From the NCBI RefSeq assembly GCF_039955095.1, contig NZ_CP154878.1:1054001-1118000 (forward strand): a stretch of DNA of 64,000 nucleotides. Reading direction: 5' to 3'. A program made the position numbers and the translations under genes. Below the pieces are notes generated by a model. It was not told the DNA's origin and searched no databases. It saw only the letters and a list, made by a program, of their open reading frames with translations. Origin of the DNA: Limosilactobacillus sp. WILCCON 0051 (GTDB taxonomy: Bacteria; Bacillota; Bacilli; Lactobacillales; Lactobacillaceae). Shown piece after piece: positions 3,508 through 64,000 of this stretch; the stretch's first letter is position 1, and each line of letters begins with the position of its first letter.

Positions 3508-3544
3508 GCTGCCAATGAGACGCCTTGGAAGGCAGGTGTCTCAT

Positions 3545-5482: not shown

Positions 5483-6524
5483 AAAAGAGTGGAATAATTA
5501 TAATGTATCAGAAATTTTCTCTAAAATTCAGCGCGGCAAGCGATTGAAAAAAGCTGATCATGTTCCAGGTGCAGTACCATATGTATCTTCTACAGCAAAC
5601 AATAATGGTGTGGATAGTTTTATTGAAGCTGTTCATGGAACAAGGATCTTTAACGATTGCATAAGTCTTGCTAACAGTGGGAGTGTCGGAACCGCTTTTT
5701 ATGAACCATTTAAATTTGTGGCAAGTGACCATGTGACTAGTCTGAGGAGAGAAGATACTTCAAAAGAAAGTTACCTTTTCCTATCTGCAATGGTAGAGAA
5801 GCAAGGGGTAAACTTTAATTTTAATCGAGAAATTAATGACTCGCGCATCAAAAAAATGCAGCTTATGCTTCCTGTTGATGATTTGGGCAATCCTGACTAT
5901 GGTTACATGACGCAGTATGCCTCCGAAATAAGGAGGGGTATGCTCATGCGGTATAGGATCTATGTTGCTAGCCAGCTTGCTCAGTTGGAATACAAGCAAA
6001 TTGCTACTCTTGATAAAAAGGAATGGAAGGAGTTTCGGCTTGGTAAGCTATTCGAAATTAGTCGTCCAAAAGCCAGAAACAAGGACCACTATGAAATGGG
6101 CGATATACCGTTTGTTGCGTCGGGCGCTACAAACAATGGTGTGATGAAGTGCTGTAAACCCCATATGGATGAACAGCTTGATGCAGGTAACTGCATTACA
6201 GTCAGCCCCGTTGATGGGAGTTCTTTTTACCAACCAATAGATTTCCTCGGACGTGGTGGAGCCGGTTCCTCGATACTTATGTTGCGAAATAACAACTTGA
6301 ATTTATTTCGAGGTGAGTTTATGGCACGTATGGTTCAGCAGACGTGTTCTAAATACAGTTACGGTCACATGGGCAACAAAGACAGTATTAAGCATGAGCG
6401 GATCATGCTTCCCGTTAATGCTACTGGAGAACCAGACTACGAGTACATGGAACAGTATGCTAAGAACATGATGCTTAAAAAATATCGACAATACCTGGAA
6501 TATCTGAAAGGCAACATTAATTAA
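5466..6524 (+). CDS. Specificity subunit of the BcgI-like restriction-modification system
   Basis: About 352 residues from ATG 5466, with AAGGAGGGG upstream inside the end of the methylase gene, so the two are translationally coupled. The protein has two homologous halves. Each starts with a segment like EWNNYNVSEIFSKIQRGKRL or EWKEFRLGKLFEISRPKARN and ends in 'LPV...G.PDY.YM.QYA', the two-target-domain layout of a type I or BcgI B subunit. It should choose the bipartite DNA site for cutting and methylation. Codon use and base composition are like the partner gene. A terminator follows at 6530. Confidence 0.88.
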   Translation: MKKLVEKEWNNYNVSEIFSKIQRGKRLKKADHVPGAVPYVSSTANNNGVDSFIEAVHGTRIFNDCISLANSGSVGTAFYEPFKFVASDHVTSLRREDTSKESYLFLSAMVEKQGVNFNFNREINDSRIKKMQLMLPVDDLGNPDYGYMTQYASEIRRGMLMRYRIYVASQLAQLEYKQIATLDKKEWKEFRLGKLFEISRPKARNKDHYEMGDIPFVASGATNNGVMKCCKPHMDEQLDAGNCITVSPVDGSSFYQPIDFLGRGGAGSSILMLRNNNLNLFRGEFMARMVQQTCSKYSYGHMGNKDSIKHERIMLPVNATGEPDYEYMEQYAKNMMLKKYRQYLEYLKGNIN

Positions 6525-22294: not shown

Positions 22295-22311
22295 AAAAAG
22301 AGGTGAACAGT

Positions 22312-31332: not shown

Positions 31333-32331
31333 ATGCTGAATCCAATTGGCTTGTCAATGCACGAACTCGGGCGGATTATGACCAGCCCGCCAGCAGCGGC
31401 GAACCAGGGTATCTACCTGGCTCATGATCTAAACAGCAACCACTATTTTGTTTTGGACCGCTTAAACAATAGTGATCTGAGTCAGCAGCCATTTGAGTTT
31501 GAAACGTTTGATGACGCTTATGCCTTCTCGAAACTAAGGGAGCGTGGAAACATGGATAAGGAAAAGAAACAGGAAAAAAAGGTCTCGCCAACAGAAATTG
31601 AACGGTTTGCCGTCAGTCGCAAGGCGCAGCAGCTGCTGAAAGACGGAACGCAGACCATTGATGCAATGGAAAAGCTGGTTGATCGGGTCAGTCCAGTAGT
31701 GGACTATGGTCGGGTCAACAGTTTGCTGCTGACGCAGGCCAGTCCGGAACAGGGCTTTATGACGAAGCAGGCCTGGATCCGTCATGATAAGAACGAGGAT
31801 TTAAAAGGCGTTGATTTTGATCAGCTCGAAGGCGTCAAGGTATTCGTACCAAACGCTAAACAGCCTGGTCAACCCGTTACGTTTGACGTTGGTAAGATGT
31901 ATTCTGCCGATGAGATTGCTGCCAAGTATCCTAACGTCAAAATGCCGGCACAAGCACTGGTCAGCCAGCGCAATCTCATGCACCAGTCATCAGAACCAGA
32001 ACGACTGGGAGCAGTGGTTGATGCCCTGCGAGAACTGAGAGTGCCGAAGCCTGACTGGGTATGGGGACGCAATCAGATTCATGCCGTGCAGACGCATATG
32101 GCACGCCATATGGCTTTTGCCAGCACTGGACTGACGAATCAGTCTTTCCATTTCAGTGCTAGTGAGCGCAAGGCTATGGCCAACCTGCAGCCTGATGAGC
32201 TACAGACGATGTTTGTCAAGTCGGTTAGCCTGGCCAGTAAGATCAATCGGACGGCCAGCCGCAAACTGTATCAAATGAAGACGCAGCAGAAAATGCAGCA
32301 GCCAGTTAAGACTAAAGCAAAGGAGCGCTGA
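31333..32331 (+). CDS. ArdC-like polyvalent protein with basic KER tail
   Basis: 332 residues. Residues about 70-210 (DYGRVNSLLLTQASPEQGFM; KVFVPNAKQPGQ) match the ArdC N-terminal, single-strand-DNA-binding domain found in anti-restriction and polyvalent proteins sent into recipients. The C-terminal 60 residues (FSASERKAMANLQPDELQTM) are similar to the end of the metallopeptidase at 41485. The last residues are KTKAKER. The next gene starts two bases after the stop and uses AAGGAG within the tail codons as binding site. Likely protects the entering DNA strand; delivery is inferred. Confidence 0.72.
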   Translation: MLNPIGLSMHELGRIMTSPPAAANQGIYLAHDLNSNHYFVLDRLNNSDLSQQPFEFETFDDAYAFSKLRERGNMDKEKKQEKKVSPTEIERFAVSRKAQQLLKDGTQTIDAMEKLVDRVSPVVDYGRVNSLLLTQASPEQGFMTKQAWIRHDKNEDLKGVDFDQLEGVKVFVPNAKQPGQPVTFDVGKMYSADEIAAKYPNVKMPAQALVSQRNLMHQSSEPERLGAVVDALRELRVPKPDWVWGRNQIHAVQTHMARHMAFASTGLTNQSFHFSASERKAMANLQPDELQTMFVKSVSLASKINRTASRKLYQMKTQQKMQQPVKTKAKER

Positions 32332-32333
32332 TT

Positions 32334-34679
32334 ATGGCAGAATACGGAGAATTAAAGAATCTGCAGGCATTTTTAAATTATTGGAATTTCACGGCCGACA
32401 AGTTTGAACAGCAGAACGATATTTACGGCCGGCTGACAGGAGCAATTATCCGCGACTGGGTATACGACTACACTAGGGAAGGCGACTTTTTGGTTGAAAA
32501 TGGCGATCTGGATTGGTTAGTCAAAGGATCGGCGTCAGATGATCAGAAATTAGCGGCATTTGATCAGTGGCTTGGCCATAACACGGCAAACCCAGCAATT
32601 GTGCCGGCAATTCACGACTATCTGGCTGAACACCGCCAGGAGATTGATCAGGAGGTCAAGGATCACCAGCTGACCCTGGACAACGTAACTGATGATTCAG
32701 CGGAACGCTACATGGAAGTCTTGGAAAAGATCAATGATCAAAAAGCGCCAAGTCCGGAGCTGATGCTGGGCTGGGCTGGCAGCTATGCGATCAAGCAGGA
32801 CAGCGAATGGCAAATCCATGGTACTCATGCGGCCTTGGAAGAACTTGAGGCTGATCAGGTCGGCTATAAGTTTGCCGGCGATTTAAGAGATGCGCCGGAT
32901 GATGCGCCCGTACATGCGACGCCTGATATCCTCCTGGCGCCGGAAGAAATGTCAGTTACCACCAAGCAAGAGCTGATGGAATCGGCGCAAGAGGTTTTAC
33001 GGAACAATGATCTGCCTGATACCGAGTACAACTGCTACTCAATGGCAGAGACCATCTTAGAAGCAACCGAATGGACGCACACTGGGATTTCAGCAGAAGA
33101 GGTCAGCATCGATCTGCGTGAAAATCCGAAAAATTATAATCTGGACGGTATGGCAGAACGCGATGCGGTCGATAAATACAATGAACGCTTTGCAAAGCTT
33201 GCAAGTCACTATGGCCTTTTAGCGGCACCTTATGATGAGAAGACCAATTATTATACTAGAGAAGTTAAGACCTACTTATGGCTGAAGGATAAGTCATTGC
33301 GGGAAACTGATGATCGAATCATTGTTGCCGATTTTGACGAGATTATGGACGCTAATGCCAACGATACACTCGATCGGCTGGCAATGAAAAAAATGGCTGA
33401 ATCTGCCAGAGCCATTGAATCATCGGCTGAATACGATCTGGATAAGGATAAGATCGATGAGCGCTATCAAGAAATTGCCAAAAAAATTGAACACGATCTG
33501 AAGACAAGCCCCAAAGTCATCAGCTATGATATGGAGACGACTGGCTTTGATCCGCAGAACGATGATATTCTGCAGCTGTCAATCGTTGATGGCGATGGCA
33601 ATGAACTGTTTAACAAGCTGTTCAAGCCAACGAAAAAGAACGAGTGGCCAGAGGCGGCCGCCGTCAATGGAATCACTCCGGAGCGCGTGCAGGACTGCCC
33701 AGCATTTCAAGCTTGGACTGGTCAAGTGCAGGAGATTTTTGACCAGGCCGATGTGGTAGTCGGGTACAATCAACGCAATTTTGATGATCGTTTTTTGAAA
33801 GCAAATGGCATCAAGATTGATCCCGCTAAAGAAAATCATGACCTGATGCTGGAATTTGCCGAGGCCGTTGGCGAACCGAATCCTTATCCAAAAGGCTTCA
33901 ACAAGACGCCTTACAAGTGGCAAAAGCTGGGGCAGGCTGCCGATTTCTATGATTACGACTGGGGCAATGAACATGCTCATGATAGTCTGGCGGACGCGCG
34001 GGCGACTGCCTACGTCTATCGGCAGATGAATCCAGAACGGCCGGTGCAGCCAAAAGAAATGGCCAAACAGTACCTTAACTATCTGCATCATGCCTATCCA
34101 AGCTATGAGAACGCACCAGCTGGAATCAGCAACAGTCTGAGCATGCTGCGCGATATGTCTGACTATCTGTACTATGAACAGCGGACGCCACGGTATACGC
34201 CACGCCAGCTGCAGTCGATGGTGCGTCAGGGCTTAGAAGAGCTAAAGAAGCAGCAGGAACGGACGCAGGAAGTTATCTATCATGATGAGCGGGTTGAAGC
34301 TGTAAAAAAACTGACACTCACTGATGATGCCAGTGATCGGGGCGGCAAGGCCTATGCAGATGAAACAGCCGGCGACTTCATGCAGACGGCATTTGGCAAC
34401 CGGTCCGACGTCGATTTTAAAGAACTGAATCAAGTCTTAAAAGAGAGTGGAATTAAGCCGCTTGCTGAACCGCTGGCCCAGCAAAAGATTGAACGGGCAG
34501 CCAAGGTCTTGGCAAAAAACTATGCTCAGGATCAAACCAGCATGGCAGTAGCCGAGTATCTTCAGAACACTAAACGGCCAATTGCTCAACGTTTGAAGGT
34601 TGCGAACAATATCATTGCTGCTCGCCGGCCACATGCCAAGCCAATTTCCAATTCCAAAAAGCAAACCAAGGAACGTTAA
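32334..34679 (+). CDS. DEDDh exonuclease polyvalent protein with basic KER tail
   Basis: 781 residues. Order: helical N-terminus; a module shared with neighbours (about 150-250, SYAIKQDSEWQIHG ... PDDAPVH); a linker; a DnaQ-like 3'-5' exonuclease (about 395-570) with SYDMETTGFD, VVGYNQRNFDD and HDSLADARATAY giving the DEDDh residues; then a C-terminal module (VLAKNYAQDQT; RLKVANNII) also seen in neighbours; tail KKQTKER. It could trim or proofread transferred DNA or attack host DNA. Coupled to the ArdC-like gene. Ends at a terminator and a 28-bp site. Confidence 0.78.
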   Translation: MAEYGELKNLQAFLNYWNFTADKFEQQNDIYGRLTGAIIRDWVYDYTREGDFLVENGDLDWLVKGSASDDQKLAAFDQWLGHNTANPAIVPAIHDYLAEHRQEIDQEVKDHQLTLDNVTDDSAERYMEVLEKINDQKAPSPELMLGWAGSYAIKQDSEWQIHGTHAALEELEADQVGYKFAGDLRDAPDDAPVHATPDILLAPEEMSVTTKQELMESAQEVLRNNDLPDTEYNCYSMAETILEATEWTHTGISAEEVSIDLRENPKNYNLDGMAERDAVDKYNERFAKLASHYGLLAAPYDEKTNYYTREVKTYLWLKDKSLRETDDRIIVADFDEIMDANANDTLDRLAMKKMAESARAIESSAEYDLDKDKIDERYQEIAKKIEHDLKTSPKVISYDMETTGFDPQNDDILQLSIVDGDGNELFNKLFKPTKKNEWPEAAAVNGITPERVQDCPAFQAWTGQVQEIFDQADVVVGYNQRNFDDRFLKANGIKIDPAKENHDLMLEFAEAVGEPNPYPKGFNKTPYKWQKLGQAADFYDYDWGNEHAHDSLADARATAYVYRQMNPERPVQPKEMAKQYLNYLHHAYPSYENAPAGISNSLSMLRDMSDYLYYEQRTPRYTPRQLQSMVRQGLEELKKQQERTQEVIYHDERVEAVKKLTLTDDASDRGGKAYADETAGDFMQTAFGNRSDVDFKELNQVLKESGIKPLAEPLAQQKIERAAKVLAKNYAQDQTSMAVAEYLQNTKRPIAQRLKVANNIIAARRPHAKPISNSKKQTKER

Positions 34680-34683
34680 TCGA

Positions 34684-34719
34684 GGAACCATTACTCAATT
34701 GAGTGATGGTTCTTTTTTT
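34684..34719 (+). terminator. Terminator directly before a 28-bp palindromic site
   Basis: Stem GAACCATTACTCA / TGAGTGATGGTTC with TTTTTTT. A near copy lies at 36593-36627 and a decayed one around 37930-37961, each followed by the same 28-bp palindrome. Confidence 0.9.
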
Positions 34720-34747
34720 AACCTCGTTCCAAGGTTGGAACGAGGTT
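34720..34747 (+). repeat. 28-bp palindromic site, copy 1 (orientation AAGGTT)
   Basis: Arms AACCTCGTTCC and GGAACGAGGTT around the six bases AAGGTT. Five copies occur in the window. The 11-6-11 layout is that of Xer/dif-type sites, and the centre gives each copy a direction. It could instead be an operator or a hairpin in RNA. Confidence 0.85.
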
Positions 34748-34827
34748 GGCCAGAGGTTGGCCAAAGATTGAATTTTCTTCAATGTAGATAAGCTCGATGT
34801 AGTTAAATTTTTAAAGGAGTGATGGCA

Positions 34828-35820
34828 ATGGTAGAGGGGCCTGAAGTCAGCTATTTGGCAGGGGTTGATAACAGTTATGCTGAAAAGGTTGGTAACAGCT
34901 GGACTATCCATGGTGCCAAAGCAGTTGATCGGCAAGGAAAAAGTTGCCGCTTCTATAAGCTGCAGAATGTCGATGATCTAGGCAGCTTGCCTGATGATGT
35001 CCCAATTTTTGCAAGCTGGAATGATAATACAGCGATTATTCCAGCTTCGGTCAAGCCAACCACTAAACATGATTTGGATAAGATGGCCACTGATGCCTTG
35101 ACAATATATGCGTATGGATTATATCCAATCAGCCAGCACAATACAGAAATTGTCGCGCAGAGTATTCTTGAACAAAGCGATATCAAGAATTACCGGACTC
35201 TCGACGTTGCCGATGGTTCCTGCTTGTATGACACTTATTGGAACGTCATCGATGATTTAAGAAAGGGCCAGAATGGCAGATTTCAAACGCTGGATGGCTG
35301 GTTTCTTGATCCAAGAATCAACCAGGTAAAGTCCAAACCACTGGTTCGTGATGAGTCGATTGAAACCAAAACCAAAGAATTTAAAACGGTGGCCGACTAT
35401 CTAAAGGACTACGAGTTCTATGCTGACCGACAACTGAATCCTGAGTTTCTAAATTGGAACTTAGAGTTGAATGGCTTTCAGCGATTAGATAGCAAACGTA
35501 CCGTCCCAAAATATACTTACACCACGCCTGATGGAACATTGCAGACGATATCGGAACATAAGCTGCTGCAAAGGGCAATCGAACTGGTGGAAAATCACTA
35601 TGCTGATGACGATGTAAAGACCTCTGCTTTAAAAGTATTAAAGCAGAAACCTTATAGCGAGGATTACCAAGCTCAGCGATTAAAACTAGCCACGCAGATC
35701 GTCGAAAAGAATGATCGAATCAAACTGGTGCCAATCGAAAAAGGATTAGCAGATCAGGTAGAGCATTTGATACGAAAACCTATGGCAAAACAGATTCAGC
35801 CAAAAGCAAAAGAACGCTAG
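34828..35820 (+). CDS. Polyvalent-cluster protein with duplicated modules and KER tail
   Basis: 330 residues from ATG 34828 (AAGGAG 8 bases upstream; GTG 34819 also in frame). N-terminal module (about 10-115) with SWTIHGA ... LPDDVPIF is shared with the proteins at 32334 and 38069. The C-terminal module (LDGWFLDPRI; SEHKLLQRAIELVENHYADD) is shared with 35848 and 38069. Tail QPKAKER. No catalytic motif is visible. Probably a structural or binding protein that travels with the transferred DNA; inferred only. Confidence 0.65.
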   Translation: MVEGPEVSYLAGVDNSYAEKVGNSWTIHGAKAVDRQGKSCRFYKLQNVDDLGSLPDDVPIFASWNDNTAIIPASVKPTTKHDLDKMATDALTIYAYGLYPISQHNTEIVAQSILEQSDIKNYRTLDVADGSCLYDTYWNVIDDLRKGQNGRFQTLDGWFLDPRINQVKSKPLVRDESIETKTKEFKTVADYLKDYEFYADRQLNPEFLNWNLELNGFQRLDSKRTVPKYTYTTPDGTLQTISEHKLLQRAIELVENHYADDDVKTSALKVLKQKPYSEDYQAQRLKLATQIVEKNDRIKLVPIEKGLADQVEHLIRKPMAKQIQPKAKER

Positions 35821-35847
35821 TTAGTTGTGAGAAAGGAGCATTAAATC

Positions 35848-36588
35848 ATGCAGAAAGAAAGCCAGGATTTCGTAACCGAAAAGATGCTGACTGAATATGC
35901 CGATGATGTTTTACGGCTTGCTGATTTACCCAGAACCGATCGCAATATAAGTCTAATCACAAAAGAACTATTAGATGATGCCAGTTCCAGCAATATTCAG
36001 GCCGCCCATGACAACCTAATTAAAAATATGTACAAGGATCGGACTAGGCAAAAACAAAATTCGCAGCTGGATGGCTTTTACAAGGATCCCAGAATTGATA
36101 AGCGCAAGAATAAGGTGCTTGAGGCAGATAGCACGGCTGCGGCGACGCTCCCTAAAGGTGCCGGGCAGACCCTAAATGATTTTCTTTTGAATGCCTATAC
36201 GCTTGAAGATGGTGATCTGAACCGTGGAATTCGGCAGCTGGACTACAAGAAACTGAATCAGAGCCTGGAAAAAATGGGCTTTGAGTGTTTGGTTAAAAAA
36301 CACCGCAGGCCCAAGTTTGGCACTATTATCAATGGTCAAAAGCATATGCTATCCGAACATGACGTTCTCAGCTGGGCGCTGGACGCAGTTGAAAACTATT
36401 ACGTACAGGATCGGACGGCGGTTTTCATCAGTAATTATCTACGCGATTCGGCCAACAATTCAATTGACAAACGCTTGAAACTGGCAATCAAAGTAGTTGA
36501 AAATACTCAAAACGTTAGATTGGTGAAGTTGAATCGAAGTCAACGCCTATCAAAGAGTATGGCCCAAGCAAAAGCCAAGGAACATTAA
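35848..36588 (+). CDS. Polyvalent-cluster protein, shortened paralogue, tail KAKEH
   Basis: 246 residues, AAAGGAGC-led. Begins in the middle of the N-terminal module (DFVTEKMLTEYADDVLRLAD aligns with DFVTKKLLMDKSKELLTKLD of the 38069 protein), so it looks like a 5'-shortened duplicate. The C-terminal module is complete (SQLDGFYKDPRI; LNDFLLNAY; LDYKKLNQSLE; SEHDVLSWALDAVE). It ends AQAKAKEH, where H replaces the usual final R. Function unknown. Confidence 0.65.
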   Translation: MQKESQDFVTEKMLTEYADDVLRLADLPRTDRNISLITKELLDDASSSNIQAAHDNLIKNMYKDRTRQKQNSQLDGFYKDPRIDKRKNKVLEADSTAAATLPKGAGQTLNDFLLNAYTLEDGDLNRGIRQLDYKKLNQSLEKMGFECLVKKHRRPKFGTIINGQKHMLSEHDVLSWALDAVENYYVQDRTAVFISNYLRDSANNSIDKRLKLAIKVVENTQNVRLVKLNRSQRLSKSMAQAKAKEH

Positions 36589-36592
36589 CTAA

Positions 36593-36627
36593 GGAACCAT
36601 TGCTCAATTGAGTAATGGCTCTTTTTT
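36593..36627 (+). terminator. Terminator before 28-bp site copy 2
   Basis: Stem GAACCATTGCTCA / TGAGTAATGGCTC plus TTTTTT, paralogous to 34684-34719. Confidence 0.88.
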
Positions 36628-36655
36628 AACCTCGTTCCAAGGTTGGACCGAGGTT
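36628..36655 (+). repeat. 28-bp palindromic site, copy 2 (orientation AAGGTT)
   Basis: Same as copy 1 except one base in the right arm (GGACCGAGGTT). Precedes the promoter box of the 36724 gene. Confidence 0.85.
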
Positions 36656-36723
36656 GGCTAAAGATTGATTTTCTGAGCCGCCGTTTAGACTCAAAGGCAA
36701 AATCAATAAAGCGAGGGACAATT

Positions 36724-37497
36724 ATGAAACAGCAGGATCAAGTCAAATATGTCTTTAATGATGGGATTGAGCCGATTGCATTTACAAAGGATCAGCTGAT
36801 CAAACAGGCTAACGCGGACGGCTATGAAACCAGCAGACACCCCGATTCAATGGCGGCATCTATTGAGGCAGCCGAGGATCTTTATGACACCAAGTTTAAG
36901 TTTATGGTTAAGCCGTTAGTCCGCTTGGAAAGAATTCATGAAGATGATGCTGTACTGATGAACGTGGTTGATCTGCACGATCAGCAGCTGCCCGGCTTTG
37001 AAAATCAGGACAAGGCCATTGAAATTATTGGCGATTACGGCATGCCAGGAGATACGCATTTGCTGATGCCTTATGATCAGAAAACGCTGAGCATGCTCAA
37101 GAGTTTTGACGACTATCAGGAGCCGGAATGGCAGCAGGCTTTTGACCGGCAGCTGGCAAAAGCACCGGAACATGCCGGCAGTCAAGACTTGGAATTGCCG
37201 AAAGTTACGGCTGATGAAGTCAGCAAGATCGTCTACGAGAAAGAACAGCCTGAAGATCTTGAAACGCAAAAGAAAATTGATTATGCCAAGCAGATTCTGC
37301 AAAAAGACTATGTACAAGATCAGACTAACCAACAGGTAACGAAATTTTTGGATAGCAGCAAGGTTCCGCTAGACAAACGGGCAGAACTGGCGAGTCGAAT
37401 TATTAAGGGCCGGCAAAACAGGCAGAAACAGACTAAGAATCAGATTGCCTATCAAATATCAAAGGTCAAGCCGCTAAAGAAGGAGCGGGAACGATAA
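36724..37497 (+). CDS. Polyvalent-cluster protein with KER-type tail
   Basis: 257 residues from ATG 36724, GCGAGGGA upstream. N-terminal 130 residues contain FVVKPLVRLERIHEDD-like strands and DKAIEIIGDYGMPGDTHLLM, resembling small domains of polyvalent proteins. The C-terminal module (AKQILQKDYVQDQT; KRAELASRIIKG) is related to the ends of 32334 and 38069, followed by a basic tail LKKERER. No catalytic residues recognised. Confidence 0.65.
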   Translation: MKQQDQVKYVFNDGIEPIAFTKDQLIKQANADGYETSRHPDSMAASIEAAEDLYDTKFKFMVKPLVRLERIHEDDAVLMNVVDLHDQQLPGFENQDKAIEIIGDYGMPGDTHLLMPYDQKTLSMLKSFDDYQEPEWQQAFDRQLAKAPEHAGSQDLELPKVTADEVSKIVYEKEQPEDLETQKKIDYAKQILQKDYVQDQTNQQVTKFLDSSKVPLDKRAELASRIIKGRQNRQKQTKNQIAYQISKVKPLKKERER

Positions 37498-37608
37498 CAA
37501 AAAAAGCGCCCGTGATGGACGCTTGGAAGCTCTTTACAGGTTTTAATTTAACGCGTGACGTACAGCATGCTGATTACCAGTAACACGCAACGGGCAAACC
37601 TTTTTTTG

Positions 37609-37860
37609 AGTCAACCACCATCGACTAAAGACGATGGCTTGTGGGCAAACACCCCAGTATTGAGTATCCGAACCACAATTTGCATAGATACGGACGATTT
37701 ACTCAAACAGCCGCAGTTGCTTAAGCAGTGATCATCTAATTACCAATGCCTTTTACGTCCCCAGGTTGCCATAGGGACGATATATCAATAGTTGTTAGAT
37801 AGTTAGCCTTATAATGCTGTAATTACTCACTTTGGTTCTTAGTGATGCAGTTACTAATTA
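37609..37860 (-). mobile_element. IS200/IS605-type end without transposase, omega-RNA-like (copy A)
   Basis: 252 bp about 95% identical to 54203-54456 in inverted orientation. On the minus strand it ends with a hairpin (CCATCG, loop around TCTTTAG, CGATGG) and TGGTTGAC, the usual right end of TnpB-bearing IS605-family elements, where the end is also the 3' part of the guide RNA. No tnpA or tnpB frame is present. It occupies most of the gap 37498-38068; the rest holds a leftward hairpin (37500-37523), a decayed terminator and 28-bp site copy 3. Confidence 0.6.
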
Positions 37861-37964
37861 AAAACGTGGGTACACTATTGCCATATCAAGCCCCAACTCT
37901 TTCCCGTTAAGTATAGCATATTGTAGTGTTAGAGTCATTGCTTGAATTGAGTAGTGGATCTTTC

Positions 37965-37992
37965 AACCTCGTTCCAACCTTGGAACGAGGTT
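37965..37992 (-). repeat. 28-bp palindromic site, copy 3 (orientation AACCTT)
   Basis: Arms identical to copy 1; the centre is reversed (AACCTT), so it is inverted relative to copies 1, 2 and 4. Followed by GGCCAGAGGTTGGCCAAAG, the same downstream sequence as copy 1. Confidence 0.85.
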
Positions 37993-38068
37993 GGCCAGAG
38001 GTTGGCCAAAGATTGAATTTTCTTCAGCGCAGATAAACTAAAGATAAACTTTTAAAGGAGTGATGGCA

Positions 38069-39865
38069 ATGGCAGAGGAGCCTGAAGTCAAGGTCGTAGA
38101 TTTCGATGATGCTGCACTTTTTGATATCAACGGTCTGCGTTACGAACTATCATTGGAAAACAGTCATCTGATTCAGAAGGTTGATGAGCGACTGGCGAAG
38201 ATTCCAGCAAAAAAATACGATATGAAAGTATTTACGATTACCGTGCCATATCTGTTTGAGGTGCCGGGGTTAGACAAATACCTTGATGTTAATCTTTCAA
38301 TCGACTGCCAGCCCTGGGACTATAAGCCTGATAGCTACTATGTAAGCACCAACTTAGGAATCGAATCAGCCAGACTGCGCGATAAGCGAGAGGATGAACG
38401 CGTGGAGGCTGAAAAAGTAGTCGTTTCGGGCGATTATGAAAAGCGTGAGGGACTGGGCGATAGCTATGCAATCAAGCAGAATGGCAACTGGGTAGTGTAT
38501 GGCGCGTATGACGTGGGTGACAATGATTATTTTGCACCCTATCATAATAGCGTTACTTACAAAATTAAAGATCTGGATGACTTTAACAAGCTGCCAGATG
38601 ACGTCCCGGTATACGTTTCAAGCTTTACTCAAAACAATATCGCTTTAGCAAGAGAAATGGATGAATGGGACCTGGAGCATGTCTTTATTACCAAAAAGCA
38701 GGTCTTAAAAGACGCAGCAGCTCTCTTGAAAAAACATAATCTACCAGCTACGCCGCACAATCAAGCATCGATTGCCAAGGAAATGATCAAAAAAGCCGGG
38801 ACGAGTGACTATCATCAAGATCCGGCAATCGAATACACGAATCGCGAAATTGATAAGTGGGACTACCAACGATTGAACAGAACACTGAAGTATGAGGGAC
38901 TGGACCTTATTGAGAAACGGCTTCAAGGCGAAGGCGAAAGCTATGCTGAAGCGTTAACCGATGGCCGATGGGCAGTGTTTGGCACGGCGGCAGCCGATGA
39001 TAGTCTGCCATCTGACAAAAAGACTTATAGACTAAAGAATATGACAGATCAGTTAGATAATCTGCCGGCTGATGCGCCACTGTTTGTCCATCCAGCGGTC
39101 TTTGAATACCGAGATATTGTTATCACGAAACCTGATAATGCTGATTTCGTCACCAAGAAGCTGCTGATGGATAAATCCAAAGAGTTGCTGACGAAACTGG
39201 ACTATCCGGAAACCAAGAAAAATCTTGATATGATGGTCAAAGAACTGCTTTCCCAGGCTGATTATGGGCGATACGATGCCGGCAGCTACGATATCCAAGT
39301 CTGGAGTTCTGGAATTGACGAACGAGTCCACAAGGGTAACGAGAACGAAAAGTACTCGCAGCTGGATGGCTTTTACAAGGATCTGAGAATCGAAAAAGCC
39401 AAGAATCAAGAATTGACTGAGGATAGCAATGCCAACAACGGTCTGAGGTTTGAGGGTGAAACACTGAACGATTTCATTCTTACCGCATATGGCAAGAATC
39501 CTGCAAAGCTGCGGAATCTGGACTATAAACAGTTGAACAAGAGCCTGGAACGGGCGGGACTGGTCCGACTGGATAGGAAACGCTTTACACCAAAATTCGA
39601 AGGTATCATCAACGGTCAGCGACAATTGCTTTCGGAACATGATGTGATCAGTCAGGCTCTGAAGACCGTTGAACGGAACTATGAGGCAGATCAAACCAAA
39701 GAACGAGTTATGGACTATCTGCGCAATGCCTATGGCAACCCACCAAAGAAGCGACTGAAATTGGCAATGAAGATCTTGAAGAATACAGGAAATGTTCAAT
39801 TGCTGCGCAAGCTGAATGTGCAGAGTCAGCCAATGATTTATCCTAAGAAGGCAAAAGAACGCTAA
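38069..39865 (+). CDS. Large modular polyvalent-cluster protein with KER tail
   Basis: 598 residues from ATG 38069 (AAGGAG 8 bases upstream). Order: unique N-terminus (about 1-125); N-terminal-type module twice (SYAIKQNGNWVVYGA ... LPDDVPVYV, and SYAEALTDGRWAVFG ... LPADAPLFV); then the C-terminal module (SQLDGFYKDLRI; LDYKQLNKSLE; SEHDVISQALKTVE; KRLKLAMKIL) and tail YPKKAKER. It is the fullest member of the duplicated family with 34828 and 35848. No enzymatic motif. Repeats suggest binding to several partners or DNA sites. Confidence 0.68.
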   Translation: MAEEPEVKVVDFDDAALFDINGLRYELSLENSHLIQKVDERLAKIPAKKYDMKVFTITVPYLFEVPGLDKYLDVNLSIDCQPWDYKPDSYYVSTNLGIESARLRDKREDERVEAEKVVVSGDYEKREGLGDSYAIKQNGNWVVYGAYDVGDNDYFAPYHNSVTYKIKDLDDFNKLPDDVPVYVSSFTQNNIALAREMDEWDLEHVFITKKQVLKDAAALLKKHNLPATPHNQASIAKEMIKKAGTSDYHQDPAIEYTNREIDKWDYQRLNRTLKYEGLDLIEKRLQGEGESYAEALTDGRWAVFGTAAADDSLPSDKKTYRLKNMTDQLDNLPADAPLFVHPAVFEYRDIVITKPDNADFVTKKLLMDKSKELLTKLDYPETKKNLDMMVKELLSQADYGRYDAGSYDIQVWSSGIDERVHKGNENEKYSQLDGFYKDLRIEKAKNQELTEDSNANNGLRFEGETLNDFILTAYGKNPAKLRNLDYKQLNKSLERAGLVRLDRKRFTPKFEGIINGQRQLLSEHDVISQALKTVERNYEADQTKERVMDYLRNAYGNPPKKRLKLAMKILKNTGNVQLLRKLNVQSQPMIYPKKAKER

Positions 39866-39977
39866 AATAATATTTTAGCTGTATTCTATACATCAAAATG
39901 ATGGCGGATGTGTTAGTATATGTTTAGACCTTTTGCAGGTCAAAATATATTCCCTAATATAGAAACGTTTTTTTCCA

Positions 39978-40016
39978 ATCAGGCGTTGGCTGGCTTGTCC
40001 GGCTGACGCTTTTTAA
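39978..40016 (+). terminator. Terminator between the polyvalent protein and the AbiEi-like pair
   Basis: Stem AGGCGTTGGCTGG / CCGGCTGACGCT with TTTTT. Confidence 0.8.
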
Positions 40017-40083
40017 TAGCCCTAACGTTATTTTTGGTATTATAACAATACGGAAAATAACATTTGAAGAAAGGTACGGAAGC

Positions 40084-40752
40084 ATGTTAAAAACGATCAG
40101 CAAGATGCAAATGGTTGAGGAACGCTTGCGGCAAGCGTATGGAGATGGCTTGTTTCAACGCAAGGATATTAACGCAGTTGAGTATGGCACTACCGATGCT
40201 GAGATGACTACAATCTTAAACCGGCTGCGACAACAAAATAAGTTGGCCGACTTTGGCGTTTCAGGCTTGTATCAATTCGTTAAATGGAACAACGATTTAG
40301 GCTTACCAATTGAAGATACTGCAGGACTGAATGAGATTATTGACTATCTGTATTTAAGTAATAATAGTGGTTATATCTATGGTGCGGATCTGCTTGAATG
40401 GTTGGGATTGAGCAATCAGATTGCCAGAGTCATTACACTGACAACAAATAACGTTAAACGAAAAGTCACGAAGCGGATATGCAACGTTGGTGTCGAAATT
40501 AAGCCAGGACTTACTAAGATAACGAAGGAAAATCAAAAATTTCTGTCAGCATTAGATACCGTCTTAACTCCGGGCATGCTGGCAACTGACAACTTTTCTT
40601 CTTCAGAAATAATAGATAAATTAGCTGCTTATGCTTTAAGCGATGGCATATCTTTGAATGAGATAAGGGAACTGATAGTAAAATTACCCAGTTCTAAGAT
40701 AAAAAAGGTTATTAAAGAAGGCTTTTATGATGTGCTGGTTAGATCCTATTAA
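40084..40752 (+). CDS. AbiEi/DUF6088-like antitoxin-type protein, copy 1
   Basis: 222 residues, GAAAGGT-led. An N-terminal winged-helix segment (FQRKDINAVEYGTTDAEMTT) is followed by SGYIYGADLLEWLGLSNQIA and ITLTTNNVKRKVTKRIC, a pattern of AbiEi-like antitoxins and DUF6088 proteins, which normally repress and neutralise an AbiEii nucleotidyltransferase. No AbiEii gene follows; instead a second copy overlaps. Its role may be regulation or protection against a toxin coded elsewhere. Confidence 0.65.
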   Translation: MLKTISKMQMVEERLRQAYGDGLFQRKDINAVEYGTTDAEMTTILNRLRQQNKLADFGVSGLYQFVKWNNDLGLPIEDTAGLNEIIDYLYLSNNSGYIYGADLLEWLGLSNQIARVITLTTNNVKRKVTKRICNVGVEIKPGLTKITKENQKFLSALDTVLTPGMLATDNFSSSEIIDKLAAYALSDGISLNEIRELIVKLPSSKIKKVIKEGFYDVLVRSY

Positions 40753-41410
40753 AATTCGAATGGTTGAAGAGAATCTATTTAAAAAATTTGGATATGGTCT
40801 GTTTCAGCGTAAAGATATCAACGCAACTAAGTATGGCATTACCAATGCTGAGATGACCACGATCTTGAATGAGCTGCAGCTCCAGGATAAACTGGCCAAC
40901 TTTGGCGTTTCGGACTTGTACCAATTCGTTAGCTGGAACAATGATTTAGGGTTTCCAATTGAAGATACTGCGGGGCCTGAAGAGGTAGCGGATTTCCTAT
41001 ATCTGAGAGACGACGGTGGGTATTATTATGGGAATGATCTTCTACTGTTTCTTGGTCTAAGTGATCAAGTATCACGTATGAAAACAATTGCGTCGAATAA
41101 CGTCAGTAAAAAACAATTTATCCAGATCTGTAATGCGGATCTAATGGTTAAGCCGGCTTTAGCAAAAGTAACGGCAGAAAACAAAAGGTTTCTACAAGCT
41201 GTTGATACGCTTCTGACTCCAGGCATGCTGTCTGTTGACGAGTTTACAGCCAAAGAAGTAGTTGGCCGACTTGCTGATTATGCAAGTGAAGATAGCATTT
41301 CAATCAAGAAAATAGAATCAATCGTCTTCTCTTTGGATGAAAAAAGCAAAAAGAAGATTCTGACAACCGGTTTTTATGATGCTCTGGTAGATAAAAAGCG
41401 ATTTAGCTAG
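40727..41410 (+). CDS. AbiEi/DUF6088-like antitoxin-type protein, copy 2
   Basis: 227 residues; ATG 40727 or 40730, with AAGAAGG upstream inside copy 1, so translation is coupled. Clearly homologous to copy 1 throughout (FQRKDINATKYGITNAEMTT; LGFPIEDTAG; TPGMLSVDEFT), a tandem duplication. Both copies keep complete frames, implying they work together or as a heterodimer. No toxin partner visible. Confidence 0.65.
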   Translation: MMCWLDPIKIRMVEENLFKKFGYGLFQRKDINATKYGITNAEMTTILNELQLQDKLANFGVSDLYQFVSWNNDLGFPIEDTAGPEEVADFLYLRDDGGYYYGNDLLLFLGLSDQVSRMKTIASNNVSKKQFIQICNADLMVKPALAKVTAENKRFLQAVDTLLTPGMLSVDEFTAKEVVGRLADYASEDSISIKKIESIVFSLDEKSKKKILTTGFYDALVDKKRFS

Positions 41411-41484
41411 GCCTGGCCAAAGATTGAATTTAGCCGACTCATCTTATCGTAGATATAAATAAAACTATGATGAGGTGACTAAAA

Positions 41485-44013
41485 ATGGCTGAAGAATTGA
41501 CCAATCCATTGACCAGTCTGCTGAAGAAAAAATATGGTATTGCTGCACCAAGCAATGTGCTGCGCTTTACCGAGAAAGACACGCTTTTTACGGCTTGGCG
41601 CAAGACGGCGCAGTTTATTTACAAGAACGGGGAGTGGTCAGATCAGGACTACCTAGACGCAATCATGTCTACCTACGAACCAGGTACTTATAAGAAAGCC
41701 TATGCAGTTGGCAAGGAAGGCGATAAAGACTTTTTTGGGGTTGGTGAGAGTGAGAACATAGAACGAATTAAAAAGGTTGTAGCGCATGATACTAAAGACA
41801 AGGCCACGCCAGCGGATCTGAAACTGTATAAGGTTAAGTTTGAGAATTCTCGTGATCAATACTTCGTGATTGATCCAACAAACCATCTGACTTCTAAGCA
41901 TAATGCAAGCTACCATTTCACTAATGACCCAGGACTTGGCAGCTGGAAGCTGGGTAATGCCAACTTAACAATCGGCTATGCCAAGCTCAAGGCAGACGTT
42001 TTAGCTGAGTTTGACAAGAACAAGGACTATTCGCCTGAAGAAAAAGCCAAAATCCGGCCAGTGATTGAAAAGAAGCTGCAACTTTTGGAGAATCCGGAAT
42101 TTAGAAAATACAATCGCTTTTACTTTGAAATGGAAGAATACGGCAACTGGACGCACGATGAATTCATTGCCAAAACGCAGCCAGATCCGCACCATGCCAG
42201 TGATAAAGATAGCGACAAATACCGCATTTACGTGCAGAACACCAAACTAGGGACCGTTACACACACGATCAGAGAGGCCGACTATCAGGAAGCTCGAAAA
42301 TCAAACCTGGCTTTGAAGTTTCTGCACGACTACTTGGCAGATACGTATAACCTGGTCATCGAACAGCACTTTGAGCGCGATCTTGACAAACAGACGCACG
42401 CTCGCGCCTGGGAGCAGAAAAAACAGATCAACAAAGAAACCCGGGCGATGATGGATAAAACGCAGCTGAAGCAGTATTTTAAGGCCGTTGAGCTGGATAA
42501 CGACGTAGACCTGGATCTGTATAAGCAGCTTTCACCAGAAATGATGCGCCTGCTGAAAATTATGCCGGCTGGGGATCAAAAGCCGATTCTGCGTCTCCGT
42601 AAACTGGGCAACTACAAGGCAAAAGGTATGTACGTACCCAGCAAAAATACGCTCGTTGTTGATTTTCGGCGGCCTGGCGAGATCTATCAGAATATGGCTG
42701 ATGGAACGGGAACGGCCGGCTATACCTCGTTTGTCCATGAGTATGGCCACTACCTGGATCGGCATTTGACGGCGGATGATAAGCCATTGTCAATTCAGCC
42801 GGAGTTTCGCAAGATTCTGCAGGCCTATCAGAGAAATTTCGATGCCAAGACCAAGGGAACACCACTGGAAAAGCATGCCGGCTACTTTAAAACGCCGACT
42901 GAGGTTTTCGCTCGGGCTTTTGAGGTTTACACCAAGCAAGCAGGCCTGAAGTCCAACCTAATTGCCGATTCATATCATAGTCTGGAGTATCGGTGCATTG
43001 ACCTGCCAATCTATCAAGACTTGAAAGCCTATTTTGACAAGCTGCCTGGCTTTGAGAACCTGGCTAAGAATCTGAATCAGGATCTGTCAGTGGTCAAAGA
43101 ACAGACGCAGCCAAAAGAACCGACAAAAACGAGTGAACGTCAATCAGAGTCTGACACGGCTGAATCAAAAGCCGACACGCAGGAGAAACCAGCTGAAAAG
43201 CCGGCTGCACAACGGGAATCAGGTCAAGGCAAGGCAGAGGAAACGATTAAGCCTCAAGAGAAGTTCCTGCCCAGCGATGCGCGGCAGAATTCAGCGGAAT
43301 TGGCGGACTATCAAGAGCTGAAGAAGTTTGCGGTTGATATCCTTGATAAATGGACGCAAACGCCAGAACGGCTGGAGAAGCTCATTGACGCCACGGGATC
43401 ACGGCTGCTGGAAAACAATCCGAACCGTGTGATCGAATTTGACCAGTGGCAGACTAAACGCCTGCCACGCTTGGTGTCAGAACAGAATCTGCAGATGATG
43501 GAAGTCGATCCAGCTAAATATAAGGCTGCGTCAATTCGCGGATTTGAGGCACTGCCGCTGCATAAATGGCAATCAAGCGAACTCTATGATTTGGACGCGC
43601 TGCTCAATCAGGCTGATCATAGTGGACCTGACTACAAGCAGCTGCAGAAGCTTGAAAAAATGGCCAGCGAAAAGGAATATAACCGAATGGCAGCCAATGT
43701 ACTGAGTCAAAAGCTGGAGCAGAGCGGGATTCCGGATCCTGATGATCAGACGCTGAAACCCGTTGTACGCATGGTTGCACATATCACGCGCCATGAGCTG
43801 AACGATGCGCTAACGGAAGGCAAACAGGAGCCGTTTAAGTTTACGCCGGCCGAACGTGAGCTGCTGAAAAAGACGCCGGCAGAAAAATTAAAGGGACTGT
43901 ATTTATCCTCGACAAAATCCACGCAGACGTTTTACAATCAGATTGCTAAACCGAAACAGCAAGAACTCGCGCCAACGCGATCTTTTGCAAAGCCAAAGCG
44001 AAAAGAGAGGTAA
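41485..44013 (+). CDS. Polyvalent zinc metallopeptidase with basic KER tail
   Basis: 842 residues, GAGGTGAC-led. Residues about 340-520 hold a zincin domain: GMYVPSKNTLVVDFRRPGE, then the metal site H418-E-Y-G-H422, and TPTEVFARAFEVY giving a third ligand, as in MPTase-PolyVal domains paired with ArdC in mobile elements. An N-terminal region of unknown fold precedes it. A Q/E/K/P-rich linker (about 545-600) leads to a helical C-terminal part similar to that of the ArdC-like protein at 31333, ending PKRKER. It could cut a host protein such as a restriction enzyme after delivery; target unknown. Confidence 0.75.
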   Translation: MAEELTNPLTSLLKKKYGIAAPSNVLRFTEKDTLFTAWRKTAQFIYKNGEWSDQDYLDAIMSTYEPGTYKKAYAVGKEGDKDFFGVGESENIERIKKVVAHDTKDKATPADLKLYKVKFENSRDQYFVIDPTNHLTSKHNASYHFTNDPGLGSWKLGNANLTIGYAKLKADVLAEFDKNKDYSPEEKAKIRPVIEKKLQLLENPEFRKYNRFYFEMEEYGNWTHDEFIAKTQPDPHHASDKDSDKYRIYVQNTKLGTVTHTIREADYQEARKSNLALKFLHDYLADTYNLVIEQHFERDLDKQTHARAWEQKKQINKETRAMMDKTQLKQYFKAVELDNDVDLDLYKQLSPEMMRLLKIMPAGDQKPILRLRKLGNYKAKGMYVPSKNTLVVDFRRPGEIYQNMADGTGTAGYTSFVHEYGHYLDRHLTADDKPLSIQPEFRKILQAYQRNFDAKTKGTPLEKHAGYFKTPTEVFARAFEVYTKQAGLKSNLIADSYHSLEYRCIDLPIYQDLKAYFDKLPGFENLAKNLNQDLSVVKEQTQPKEPTKTSERQSESDTAESKADTQEKPAEKPAAQRESGQGKAEETIKPQEKFLPSDARQNSAELADYQELKKFAVDILDKWTQTPERLEKLIDATGSRLLENNPNRVIEFDQWQTKRLPRLVSEQNLQMMEVDPAKYKAASIRGFEALPLHKWQSSELYDLDALLNQADHSGPDYKQLQKLEKMASEKEYNRMAANVLSQKLEQSGIPDPDDQTLKPVVRMVAHITRHELNDALTEGKQEPFKFTPAERELLKKTPAEKLKGLYLSSTKSTQTFYNQIAKPKQQELAPTRSFAKPKRKER

Positions 44014-44018
44014 GTTAA

Positions 44019-44285
44019 ATGAATACGCCTGTAAACACGCCTTCATTGGATCTGGTATCAATCGAAGCCATCAACGGCAGCATTGCAACGGTCCAGATCA
44101 TTGGACTGGACAACAAGTTTGAAGCCATCATTCCCGATGGTGCTGACGTTAAGGTCGGCGAGATCTACAGCATTGCCATGGACTACAAGCATCTGATTGC
44201 TGGCGACAACATTCCGGACGAGGATGTTGACAAGTTTGAACGTCTGCAGAAAATGGCGGAGGAAGCCAAACGTAACAAAGATTAA
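44019..44285 (+). CDS. Small acidic protein between metallopeptidase and Fic genes
   Basis: 88 residues, AGAGGTAAG-led, five bases after the metallopeptidase. Strand-rich (ATVQIIGLDNKFEAIIPDG; VGEIYSIAMDYKHLIAGD), acidic, lacks the KER tail (ends RNKD). Its size and position suggest a chaperone, inhibitor or immunity protein for a neighbour; speculative. Confidence 0.55.
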   Translation: MNTPVNTPSLDLVSIEAINGSIATVQIIGLDNKFEAIIPDGADVKVGEIYSIAMDYKHLIAGDNIPDEDVDKFERLQKMAEEAKRNKD

Positions 44286-44312
44286 AAATTTTTATGGAAG
44301 GGAATGGTATGT

Positions 44313-45068
44313 ATGGACAATACAGCATTGGCCAGATTTATCACGTCTTTCGGGAGTTTGAACGGCTATGGCAGCTCCGTAGCGCAGACGAAAAAAGCGC
44401 TTGATGATAGAAACACCAAACCCTTGGAACAGTCGGAAAAAGATATCGGTATTTTTAAAGACGCATTGGCAGGAATTGCCGCAATCAAGAAAAACGGTTT
44501 TTCTATTGATGACATTATCGCGATTAATAAGGCGTTTGTGTTTGCTGAGGACGAAGATCCGGAAATTCCAGGGCACTTGCGTAACTCGCTGTACAATACC
44601 GATGATAATATTTCAATCATTGTTGATAAATCATCGTCATTTGCCTATTTTCCTCCTGAAGTGGTAACAAGACGGGATTTAGAAATGATAGTCAATGGCT
44701 TCAATGGCTCCAAAAGAACCGAACGTGATGCCTGGCAGGTCTTTGCGAGACTGTCAAAACTGCAGCCATTTCAGGACGGCAATAAGCGGACGGCACTGAT
44801 TGCGGCTAACGGGGCAATGAACGTCTGGAATAGCGAAAATTACCTGGTTCTGCCGTTTAATGATCTTGATCGAGTAGAGTATATGGTCAACTTGATGCGT
44901 TACTATCAAGCCGAAACGCCTGAGGAAGAAGACAAATTCTTTAGCCGAATGATGCGTCTGCTGCCATCAAGCAAAGAAAGAGCCATCCAACTGCACAATC
45001 CAGTCATTGATCCGTTGGCAAAGACTCACAAGGTTAAGACTACGTTCAAAACAGGTCGTGAAAGATAG
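44313..45068 (+). CDS. Fic-domain protein with altered active site and basic tail
   Basis: 251 residues from ATG 44313 (GGAAGGGA 9 bases upstream; ATG 44304 lacks spacing). The Fic core reads LQPFQDGNKRTALIAAN, with Q151 in place of the catalytic histidine of HPFxxGN(G/K)R, while F, D, G, N, K and R remain. Classic AMPylation is therefore doubtful; it may be inactive, use another chemistry or act by binding. The tail TTFKTGRER fits the cluster's basic end. A second Fic gene starts at 63686. Ends at a terminator. Confidence 0.75.
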   Translation: MDNTALARFITSFGSLNGYGSSVAQTKKALDDRNTKPLEQSEKDIGIFKDALAGIAAIKKNGFSIDDIIAINKAFVFAEDEDPEIPGHLRNSLYNTDDNISIIVDKSSSFAYFPPEVVTRRDLEMIVNGFNGSKRTERDAWQVFARLSKLQPFQDGNKRTALIAANGAMNVWNSENYLVLPFNDLDRVEYMVNLMRYYQAETPEEEDKFFSRMMRLLPSSKERAIQLHNPVIDPLAKTHKVKTTFKTGRER

Positions 45069-47020: not shown

Positions 47021-47084
47021 GTGATTGTCGAATAGAAATATTGCATATCGCTTTAGTCAAGGAACAAGAATCGAGGAGTTACAT

Positions 47085-55420: not shown

Positions 55421-55448
55421 AACCTCGTTCCAAGGTTGGAACGAGGTT
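55421..55448 (+). repeat. 28-bp palindromic site, copy 4 (orientation AAGGTT)
   Basis: Identical to copy 1. Lies between the divergent recombinase and adhesin genes, the usual place for a recombinase's own site. Confidence 0.88.
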
Positions 55449-63603: not shown

Positions 63604-63631
63604 AACCTCGTTCCAACCTTGGAACGAGGTT
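63604..63631 (-). repeat. 28-bp palindromic site, copy 5 (orientation AACCTT)
   Basis: Identical to copy 3 and inverted relative to copy 4; copies 4 and 5 bracket the whole adhesin gene (55449-63603). Confidence 0.88.
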
Positions 63632-63685: not shown

Positions 63686-64000
63686 ATGGCCAAAGTCGAT
63701 ACCGTCAAAATACTAAAGCAAGAAAGAAGTCAGCATTTTTCGCAAGGACTGTATGAATGGTCGCAGGTTGCTTTTGCTTACAACAACAATCATATGGAAG
63801 GGTCAGCGTTAAGCGAGGCCCAAGTTCGGCAACTGTATGACACTGGGACGGTTTTTGCTGAAAGTGGGGATCCAATCAAAGCCAACGATATCATTGAAAC
63901 GCAGAACCATTTTCGCTTGTTCGATTTTATGTTGGATACGATTGACCAGCCGTTGACTTTGGACTATATAAAAGAACTGCAAGGTATTCTAAAACAAGGA
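63686..64000 (+). CDS. Fic-family protein, N-terminal part (cut by window edge)
   Basis: 105 residues visible from ATG 63686 (AGGAAGGTGATC upstream), open to the window end. WSQVAFAYNNNHMEGSALSE followed by QVRQLYDTGTVFAE is the N-terminal helix region of Fic proteins, in which the (S/T)xxxE(G/N)-like element can restrain the enzyme. The active site lies beyond the window. It follows 28-bp site copy 5, so it is another gene in the same genomic pattern as the polyvalent cluster. Confidence 0.8.
   Translation, partial: MAKVDTVKILKQERSQHFSQGLYEWSQVAFAYNNNHMEGSALSEAQVRQLYDTGTVFAESGDPIKANDIIETQNHFRLFDFMLDTIDQPLTLDYIKELQGILKQG

Follow-up and report, generated by a model that had tools for sequence, protein, structure and literature searches.

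A short basic C-terminal tail on effector-type proteins of an apparent conjugative element in Limosilactobacillus sp. WILCCON 0051, a candidate translocation signal

The stretch of DNA analysed here, called the window throughout, covers 64,000 nucleotides (G000:C1:1054001-1118000) of the genome of the gut lactobacillus Limosilactobacillus sp. WILCCON 0051, a single contig of 2,356,337 bases. It contains a cluster of eight genes, A to H, which apparently sits inside an integrated conjugative element with its type IV secretion system (T4SS) genes upstream of the window. An earlier note on this DNA had claimed that the eight proteins share a basic C-terminal tail. All eight open reading frame (ORF) ends were re-read and finish as it described (Table 1), five of them in exactly Lys-Glu-Arg (KER). 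The five KER ends are encoded by AAGGAGCGC, AAGGAACGT, AAAGAACGC (twice) and AAAGAGAGG, four different codings, in agreement with the note's statement that the codons differ under the same tail. The terminal codon of D is CAT, with CGT or CGC at the same place in B, C and F. As also claimed, the tail is absent from the interspersed genes, namely the AbiEi-family pair (40084/40727), the 44019 protein and the MqsR/MqsA-like pair (45204/45491). The tail is a real terminal tag on effector-type proteins, referred to below as cargo, of one element and its closer relatives, and is found beside T4SS genes.

The description of the eight proteins as unrelated did not hold, as B, C, D, E and F have modules and a C-terminal region in common, and the C-termini of A and G matched weakly in a profile comparison (hhalign E 0.003, probability 10%). 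Their domain content differs: G combines LPD1 with a zincin-like HEYGH motif, B has an exonuclease domain among modules without assignment and H consists of a single Fic domain. A Pfam scan at E 0.1 gave no family for A, C, D or E and one sub-threshold match for F, leaving the earlier label of A as ArdC-like without Pfam support. The predicted structures were of low confidence (mean pLDDT 53.5 for A and 48.6 for F) and too poor for a fold search. The true start of E is probably the ATG at 36724, and its database copy P0002 has 257 aa. The named close database copies of the window proteins are from Limosilactobacillus mucosae. The relatives of H, among 120 of 168 listed from the protein database, have varied ends, with terminal Arg in 33 of the 120.

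Table 1. Coordinates of the cluster and associated features (window positions unless marked as genome positions).
Feature	Position	Strand	Description
A	31333..32331	+	332 aa; tail KTKAKER; 5 of 5 database homologues with KER end
B	32334..34679	+	781-aa modular protein, exonuclease domain RNase_T (PF00929, 2.4e-16); tail KKQTKER
C	34819..35820	+	333-aa modular protein; tail QPKAKER
D	35848..36588	+	246-aa modular protein; tail QAKAKEH
E	36643..37497	+	modular protein; tail LKKERER
F	38060..39865	+	601-aa modular protein; tail PKKAKER
G	41485..44013	+	842-aa LPD1 protein (PF18796, 3.8e-06; 27.3 against a cut-off of 27 bits); tail KPKRKER
H	44304..45068	+	Fic protein (PF02661, 7.1e-07); tail FKTGRER
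Two AbiEi-family paralogues	40084-40752, 40727-41410	+	56% identical; AbiEi 1.4e-19, 8.4e-18; no tail
MobL/MobP2-type relaxase	22303..24327	+	MobL 140.7 against 28.5 bits; MobP2 192.8 against 200, just below; ends ETREI, untagged
Palindrome	34722..34745		upstream of C
Palindrome, one change	36630..36653		upstream of the likely E start
Palindrome	37967..37990		upstream of F
Palindrome	55423..55446		upstream of large surface protein 55535-63229
Palindrome	63606..63629		upstream of Fic gene at 63686
Palindromes outside the window	G000:C1 1019913, 1020404, 1035066, 1043318, 1118556 (genome)		
Further Fic gene, start	63686..64000	+	continues to 64480 beyond the window (genome 1117686); tail PQKSPRH

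The sole VirD4-type match in the genome is an ORF at 1029304-1032318, about 22 kb before the window. Its neighbours encode a topoisomerase resembling type IA, a ClpA/B-like ATPase, a membrane protein of the p028 family and an ATPase resembling VirB4, and their order is similar to that in the L. salivarius UCC118 plasmid pMP118. Profile scores were above the cut-off for VirD4 CD1115 (326.6 against 250 bits) and p028 (198.6 against 150) and below it for VirB4 (222.5 against 590), and the best score of a tyrosine-recombinase-like ORF at 1018668-1019807 (72.2 bits) was also below the cut-offs. Integrase, relaxase, VirD4, VirB4 and p028 genes lie on one stretch, which is the gene content of an integrative and conjugative element with a pLS20-type T4SS. 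The ClpA/B-like AAA+ ATPase (L040:4040-5890) lies within the T4SS cluster, has annotated counterparts in pMP118 and Furfurilactobacillus rossiae, and is a candidate substrate unfoldase. Further cargo genes encode a Fic protein at 1041749-1042372 ending KKKQSHKR and a toprim protein at 1118904-1120745 with the tail NVKAREK.

The frequency of KER ends was determined by scanning both strands of whole genomes with the pattern AAR-GAR-MGN-TRR. The genome gave 41 raw matches, of which 39 were inspected and the remaining two end in TGG, which is no stop. Five were in-frame ends of ORFs of at least 60 aa (A, B, C, F and G), so that every KER-ending ORF of this length in the 2.36-Mb genome lies inside one 13-kb cluster. 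Finding five of five within eight genes has a hypergeometric probability of 1e-13 to 4e-13 for an assumed 1,800-2,200 genes. Two further genomes, L. mucosae DSM 13345 (G215) and L. salivarius DSM 20555 (G022), were scanned for TAA and TGA stops; this leaves uncounted the KER ends of the G022 LPD1 and toprim proteins, where the stop is TAG. G215 gave 17 matches, two of them ends of ORFs of at least 60 aa and both element cargo. G022 gave 55 matches, of which 42 were inspected and 13 set aside (the listed codon being Ser); the two ends of ORFs of at least 60 aa belonged to a Fic protein and a chromosomal-looking 477-aa protein, which we take to resemble GatB. By these counts KER ends are rare and concentrated on cargo, though imperfectly. 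The earlier note had held that an equally common tail on chromosomal proteins would speak against a signal; this was not observed in the own genome, and the 477-aa protein of DSM 20555 is an exception.

The same or related tails were found in other elements. Plasmid pMP118, read over 238,000 of its 242,436 bases, has a related T4SS and a VirD4 that is 49.6% identical. KER ends were present on 4 of its 191 ORFs of at least 100 aa, two Fic proteins, an LPD1/ArdC protein (annotated ArdC-like) and a toprim protein, and a third Fic ends RKHKDR. In G215, the VirD4 of which is 82% identical, orthologues keep a basic tail while the letters drift, for example from KKQTKER to KSTRSR; seven basic-tailed proteins end KSTRSR, KKKDRSR, KRQAR, KPKER, KGKER, KSKER and KGRER. 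The F. rossiae element has a toprim protein ending SKSRAR, an A-like protein ending TQPKR and one Fic ending HERGR. A second type of tail was seen on L. johnsonii G2A plasmid 2, which has its own VirD4 and p028 genes: Fic, PBECR4, LPD1/DarA_C, NADAR-toprim and two other proteins end DLER, DLDM, TLNM, ALSM, ELDL and GLDL. The ends of G374 (KELNI, DKSI, EIGL) and G126 (NNINL, EIKI) were also judged by eye to be hydrophobic. The relaxases of pMP118, F. rossiae, G246, G140 and G269 end in -ER, which would fit a tag copied from a relaxase signal; no such claim is made because the own (ETREI) and G215 (ESRGI) relaxases lack it.

The dependence of the tail on element or enzyme family was examined with 69 cargo proteins that had been assigned from homology after trimming of the last 20 residues. 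The list of 83 rows had been reduced by 14, ten from near-duplicate or partial contigs (G142C12, G022C4, G022C17, G022C17b, G252C1b, G137C9, G026C23) and four others (two duplicate E. mundtii genes, a 133-aa pMP118 fragment and a short Doc protein). Over the last six residues the mean BLOSUM62 score was 6.77 for pairs from the same element but different families (120 pairs) and 0.31 for pairs from the same family but different elements (495 pairs), a difference reached in 0 of 2000 within-family shuffles. By offset from the end the difference was 6.36 at 0, 1.43 at 3 and -0.83 at 6; it was about 1.5 at offsets 12-15 and otherwise within 1.0 of zero out to offset 39. No element effect was seen for 981 non-cargo ORFs (-4.81 vs -4.71). 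For terminal Arg and charge, 63 of the 69 rows were counted, six rows from four small contigs being left out. Terminal Arg was found on 37 of 63 cargo proteins vs 58 of the 970 other ORFs that these elements contain and, without the three KER elements, on 18 of 40 vs 44 of 730. In the KER group, different proteins of one system have a net positive extreme C-terminus.

Such similarity could be a by-product of shared ancestry, the C-terminal modules having been duplicated or exchanged and the tails being functionless. The modules common to B, C, D, E and F fit this, as would the possible distant relationship of A and G at the C-terminus and a C-terminal stretch of about 70-100 residues common to four of the six L. 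johnsonii cargo proteins (PBECR4, LPD1, Fic and another; E 1e-10 or better). The KER-ended Fic, toprim and LPD1 families of pMP118, however, show no mutual C-terminal match: with the last ten residues cut, BLASTP at E 1 gave none except Fic against Fic. The element effect also remained when C-terminally related families were merged (1 of 5000 shuffles; 2 of 5000 without the window's element and G215), and P0001, a relative of E with an extra domain ahead of the tail, keeps a basic -ER end (KKKGQER). Shared ancestry alone is considered the least probable of the explanations weighed here.

Pfam families were then located regardless of tails in the genomes with a VirD4 relative (E 1e-60), 20 of the 396 genomes of the family. 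Terminal Arg was present on 10 of 12 ArdcN proteins, two of these ten having a net charge of -1 over the last ten residues. Toprim_2 gave 44 hits, of which G165:C119 and one without a stop in its stretch were left out; terminal Arg was found on 11 of 22 non-DnaG vs 1 of 20 DnaG-like copies, DnaG-like status being assigned by length and one copy per genome. Of 47 Fic hits, less two with internal stops, terminal Arg occurred on 7 of 14 whose gene shares a contig with a VirD4 gene and lies no more than 95 kb from it, a limit chosen to take in the own Fic at 88.6 kb, vs 5 of 31 elsewhere; three of these five (G215:C89 and two on G022:C17) have their match in a Fic gene of the own element or of pMP118. 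The background of terminal Arg was 7 of 142 ORFs of at least 150 aa in ten 20-kb stretches of the own genome.

Toxin and antitoxin pairs gave a further comparison. A tagged 358-aa protein of G215 (end SKKKGRER) was identified as AbiEii (PF08843 1.2e-24; PADLOC 5.2e-49), and the untagged gene before it encodes an AbiEi that is 69% identical to the window 40727 protein. In G246 an AbiEii gene situated 20 kb from VirD4 has a product ending LNQSKRR, and the product of the neighbouring AbiEi gene (7e-43) ends ALYGE; an ADP-ribosyltransferase-like protein of this element ends LKTNLTR. The AbiEi proteins beside element AbiEii end DEIFK and ALYGE, and the three off-element AbiEii proteins end FEKNK (two identical copies) and KIDVS, all without terminal Arg; one AbiEii copy in G350 has an internal stop. 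The numbers are small, and the presence of the tag on AbiEii and not on AbiEi is in the direction expected if toxins were delivered and antitoxins were not. The G215 element pairs AbiEi with a tagged AbiEii, whereas the window has tandem AbiEi alone, and no AbiEii match was obtained anywhere in the own genome. The tandem AbiEi paralogues are possibly orphan antitoxins retained as immunity.

A 24-bp palindrome is present in ten copies within 980001-1150000 with at most one change, and was found 0 times with five changes allowed in a background of ten 20-kb stretches. The copies precede the integrase-like gene, the T4SS operon, a gene within the T4SS cluster, C, E, F, the surface protein, the Fic gene and two small ORFs, one of which stands before the toprim gene. 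In G215 a diverged palindrome (4-5 changes) lies ahead of several matching genes. Because the same palindrome is upstream of both, cargo and T4SS machine appear to be under common control, and the palindrome is likely to be the operator of an element-wide regulator.

The window also has two very large ORFs, 47025-50603, which ends in an LPQTG-type anchor, and 55535-63229; both probably encode surface proteins and lie within the element. The right end of the element probably reaches 1120745 or beyond, because the Fic (1117686) and toprim genes come after the surface-protein genes. A search for attachment (att) sites returned internal palindrome copies as the longest repeats common to both end regions, and no att pair was identified. 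The start of the window (88-1353, 3494-5482 and 5427-6524) contains restriction-modification genes, an N6-methylase and two Methylase_S (specificity) ORFs; the first is the end of an ORF of 1,244 aa whose start lies ahead of the window.

The Bacillus subtilis plasmid pLS20, of which 50,000 of 65,774 bases were read, has the same kind of T4SS (VirD4 CD1115, p028, MobL). Toprim and MazF-like genes come after its relaxase gene, with one small ORF before each, and both products have basic tails. The tails differ from those of the window in ending LVRG and SRER: the toprim protein ends SKKNMLVRG and the MazF-like protein RRNSRER. The MazF-like protein (L255:32208-32720) has 170 aa with a marginal Pfam match (23.0 vs a cut-off of 23.1) ending at residue 120, and its tail is on a C-terminal extension. 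A literature search on pLS20 and MazF returned no title on transfer of the MazF-like or toprim proteins. The ArdcN-MPTase protein of pLS20, presumably the ardC product, ends DQISTAS.

These observations bear on the possibility that the cargo genes act only after entry, through expression in the recipient (establishment or zygotic induction), with the tail serving stability or localisation there. The ardC gene of plasmid p576 is described as being expressed for a short time once transfer has taken place, with a like presumption for pLS20 (PMC8708921), and the palindrome could be an operator released on entry. The palindrome is however also upstream of the integrase gene and the T4SS operon, both needed by donors, and the ArdcN-MPTase protein of pLS20 has no tail. 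Expression after entry leaves unexplained why the tail follows the element, and is regarded as highly improbable.

The reading that we consider probable is that the short C-terminal tail serves as a translocation signal for the coupling machinery of the element. The signal would comprise about 5 to 8 residues, basic and usually Arg-terminal, with KER in this group. It would mark toxin-like as well as anti-defence and DNA-handling proteins (LPD1/ArdC, toprim/DUF3991, Fic, exonuclease), and in related elements also AbiEii and an ADP-ribosyltransferase. Loading would be by the coupling machinery (VirD4, CD1115 family) of the adjacent pLS20-type T4SS, and the marked proteins would enter the recipient together with or ahead of the DNA. 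We infer recognition by VirD4 or a partner of VirD4, transfer, and action in the recipient from sequence. The earlier note had proposed a common secretion address. In favour of this, MobL and a T4SS with the sole VirD4 accompany the cluster on one stretch. The tail also occurs on various enzymes of another element whose T4SS is related, goes with the element and not with the enzyme, is not found elsewhere in the own genome and is on AbiEii toxins and not on AbiEi. The note's premise of unrelated proteins was overstated.

Basic peptides bind DNA, and the tail might instead be a docking peptide for a partner inside the donor, such as the relaxosome, the ClpB/ClpA-like ATPase or single-stranded DNA, serving assembly or unfolding and not itself being an export signal. 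The ClpA/B-like ATPase gene within the T4SS cluster would suit such a role, and several cargo families handle nucleic acids. The tagged Fic, AbiEii and ADP-ribosyltransferase proteins, though, are toxin-like rather than DNA-processing, the signal is limited to the last residues, and the relaxase of the element is untagged. Docking in the donor is judged unlikely.

Several observations weigh against a translocation signal of this kind. The relaxase, ETREI-ended, has no tag at its end, and the Fic protein at 1050696-1051358 of the same element is tailless (EVHI). Tailless cargo also occurs in R-tail elements, in the second F. rossiae Fic (EPIRA) and the G350 Fic (MDLE). Despite VirD4 relatives, terminal Arg was found on 0 of 3 cargo proteins in G374, 0 of 2 in G126 and 0 of 1 in each of G173, G140, G269, G022C5 and G317, and on 1 of 6 in L. 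johnsonii and 1 of 3 in E. mundtii. The search seeds included A to H, known by their tails, and two L. johnsonii proteins picked after the tails had been seen, a possible bias; dropping the window's element (OWN), G215 and pMP118 removes the first and dropping L. johnsonii the second. With related families merged, the residue-level difference was reached in 286 of 5000 shuffles after the first of these steps and in 1320 of 5000 after both. With Fic vs toprim only it was reached in 94 of 5000. Because the shuffle tests without the KER elements and L. johnsonii lose the effect, it is firm only for the KER group; the tendency of the tail to track the element and not the enzyme family is suggestive with L. 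johnsonii included and not significant for the distant elements alone, although these still have more terminal Arg on cargo overall. Net charge was a weak discriminator outside the KER group (basic last eight residues in 15 of 40 vs 184 of 730, p 0.095), and charge alone was set aside for this purpose. An exploratory comparison, in which the rows are not independent and two unlabelled ones were left out, showed an acidic tendency of the last 120 VirD4 residues in elements with R tails (Mann-Whitney p 0.014, 12 vs 7), but in pMP118 these residues have a charge of +3, which contradicts an acidic VirD4 C-terminus as receptor. A VirD4 tree compared with tail type gave three changes, with 0 of 200 shuffles as low; it was rejected as evidence, the labels having been set after the tails were seen and elements inheriting both together.

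Most T4SS signals are described as short, positively charged and hard to predict (PMC5675462), and include positively charged and hydrophobic kinds among others (PMC10025392), with which the two tail types described here agree. For F-type conjugation, Cre transfer was in general supported by cloned C-termini with a positive charge (PMC11288057). The VirB/VirD4 effectors VirF, VirE2 and VirE3 of Agrobacterium likewise have a short basic Arg-containing C-terminus on different proteins of one system (PMC10025392). The window differs from them in a Gram-positive conjugative T4SS, a shorter tag and KER or a variable -R end. The VirF-type consensus spacing R-x7-R-x-R-x-R was judged by eye not to be present in the eight tails. 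The Bartonella proteins VbhT and Beps combine Fic with a BID domain, the tail of the Beps being positively charged, and are comparable in that a conjugative element's Fic toxin has its address at the C-terminus (PMC5675462; PMC10025392). Here the tag consists of a few residues and is found on several classes of enzyme, and no BID-type family was listed by Pfam at E 0.1 for the eight proteins. The antibacterial XVIPCD effectors of Xanthomonadaceae share a C-terminal region by which they bind VirD4 (PMC10025392), but this region is about 120 residues long. The cargo resembles the polyvalent proteins of Iyer et al. (2017) in its LPD1, ArdC, toprim and ADP-ribosyltransferase domains, and protein transfer with DNA is discussed for these (PMC5512222). 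It differs in that several proteins here have one known domain or none, and in that no common address tail appears in the part of PMC5512222 drawn on here.

To our knowledge, the question of which proteins travel with DNA in Gram-positive conjugation is largely open. Titles and abstract starts in the open-licence literature gave no report that polyvalent or toxin proteins of conjugative elements in Gram-positive bacteria have a C-terminal tag in common, which is no proof of absence. The element, and not the enzyme, seems to set the tag. More tentatively, conjugative elements of lactobacilli and their relatives may each use a specific C-terminal zip code, only a few residues long and suited to being attached to whatever toxin or anti-defence enzyme the element carries, with KER here, other basic -R ends in relatives and the hydrophobic-acidic DLDM and TLNM in L. 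johnsonii as variants; with the toxin tagged and the antitoxin not, mating would therefore inject an unguarded toxin along with the DNA that can supply its antidote. A terminal tag that can be read from sequence would give a list of substrates for each element, and would make the idea of polyvalent-protein delivery directly testable, including in the B. subtilis plasmid pLS20.

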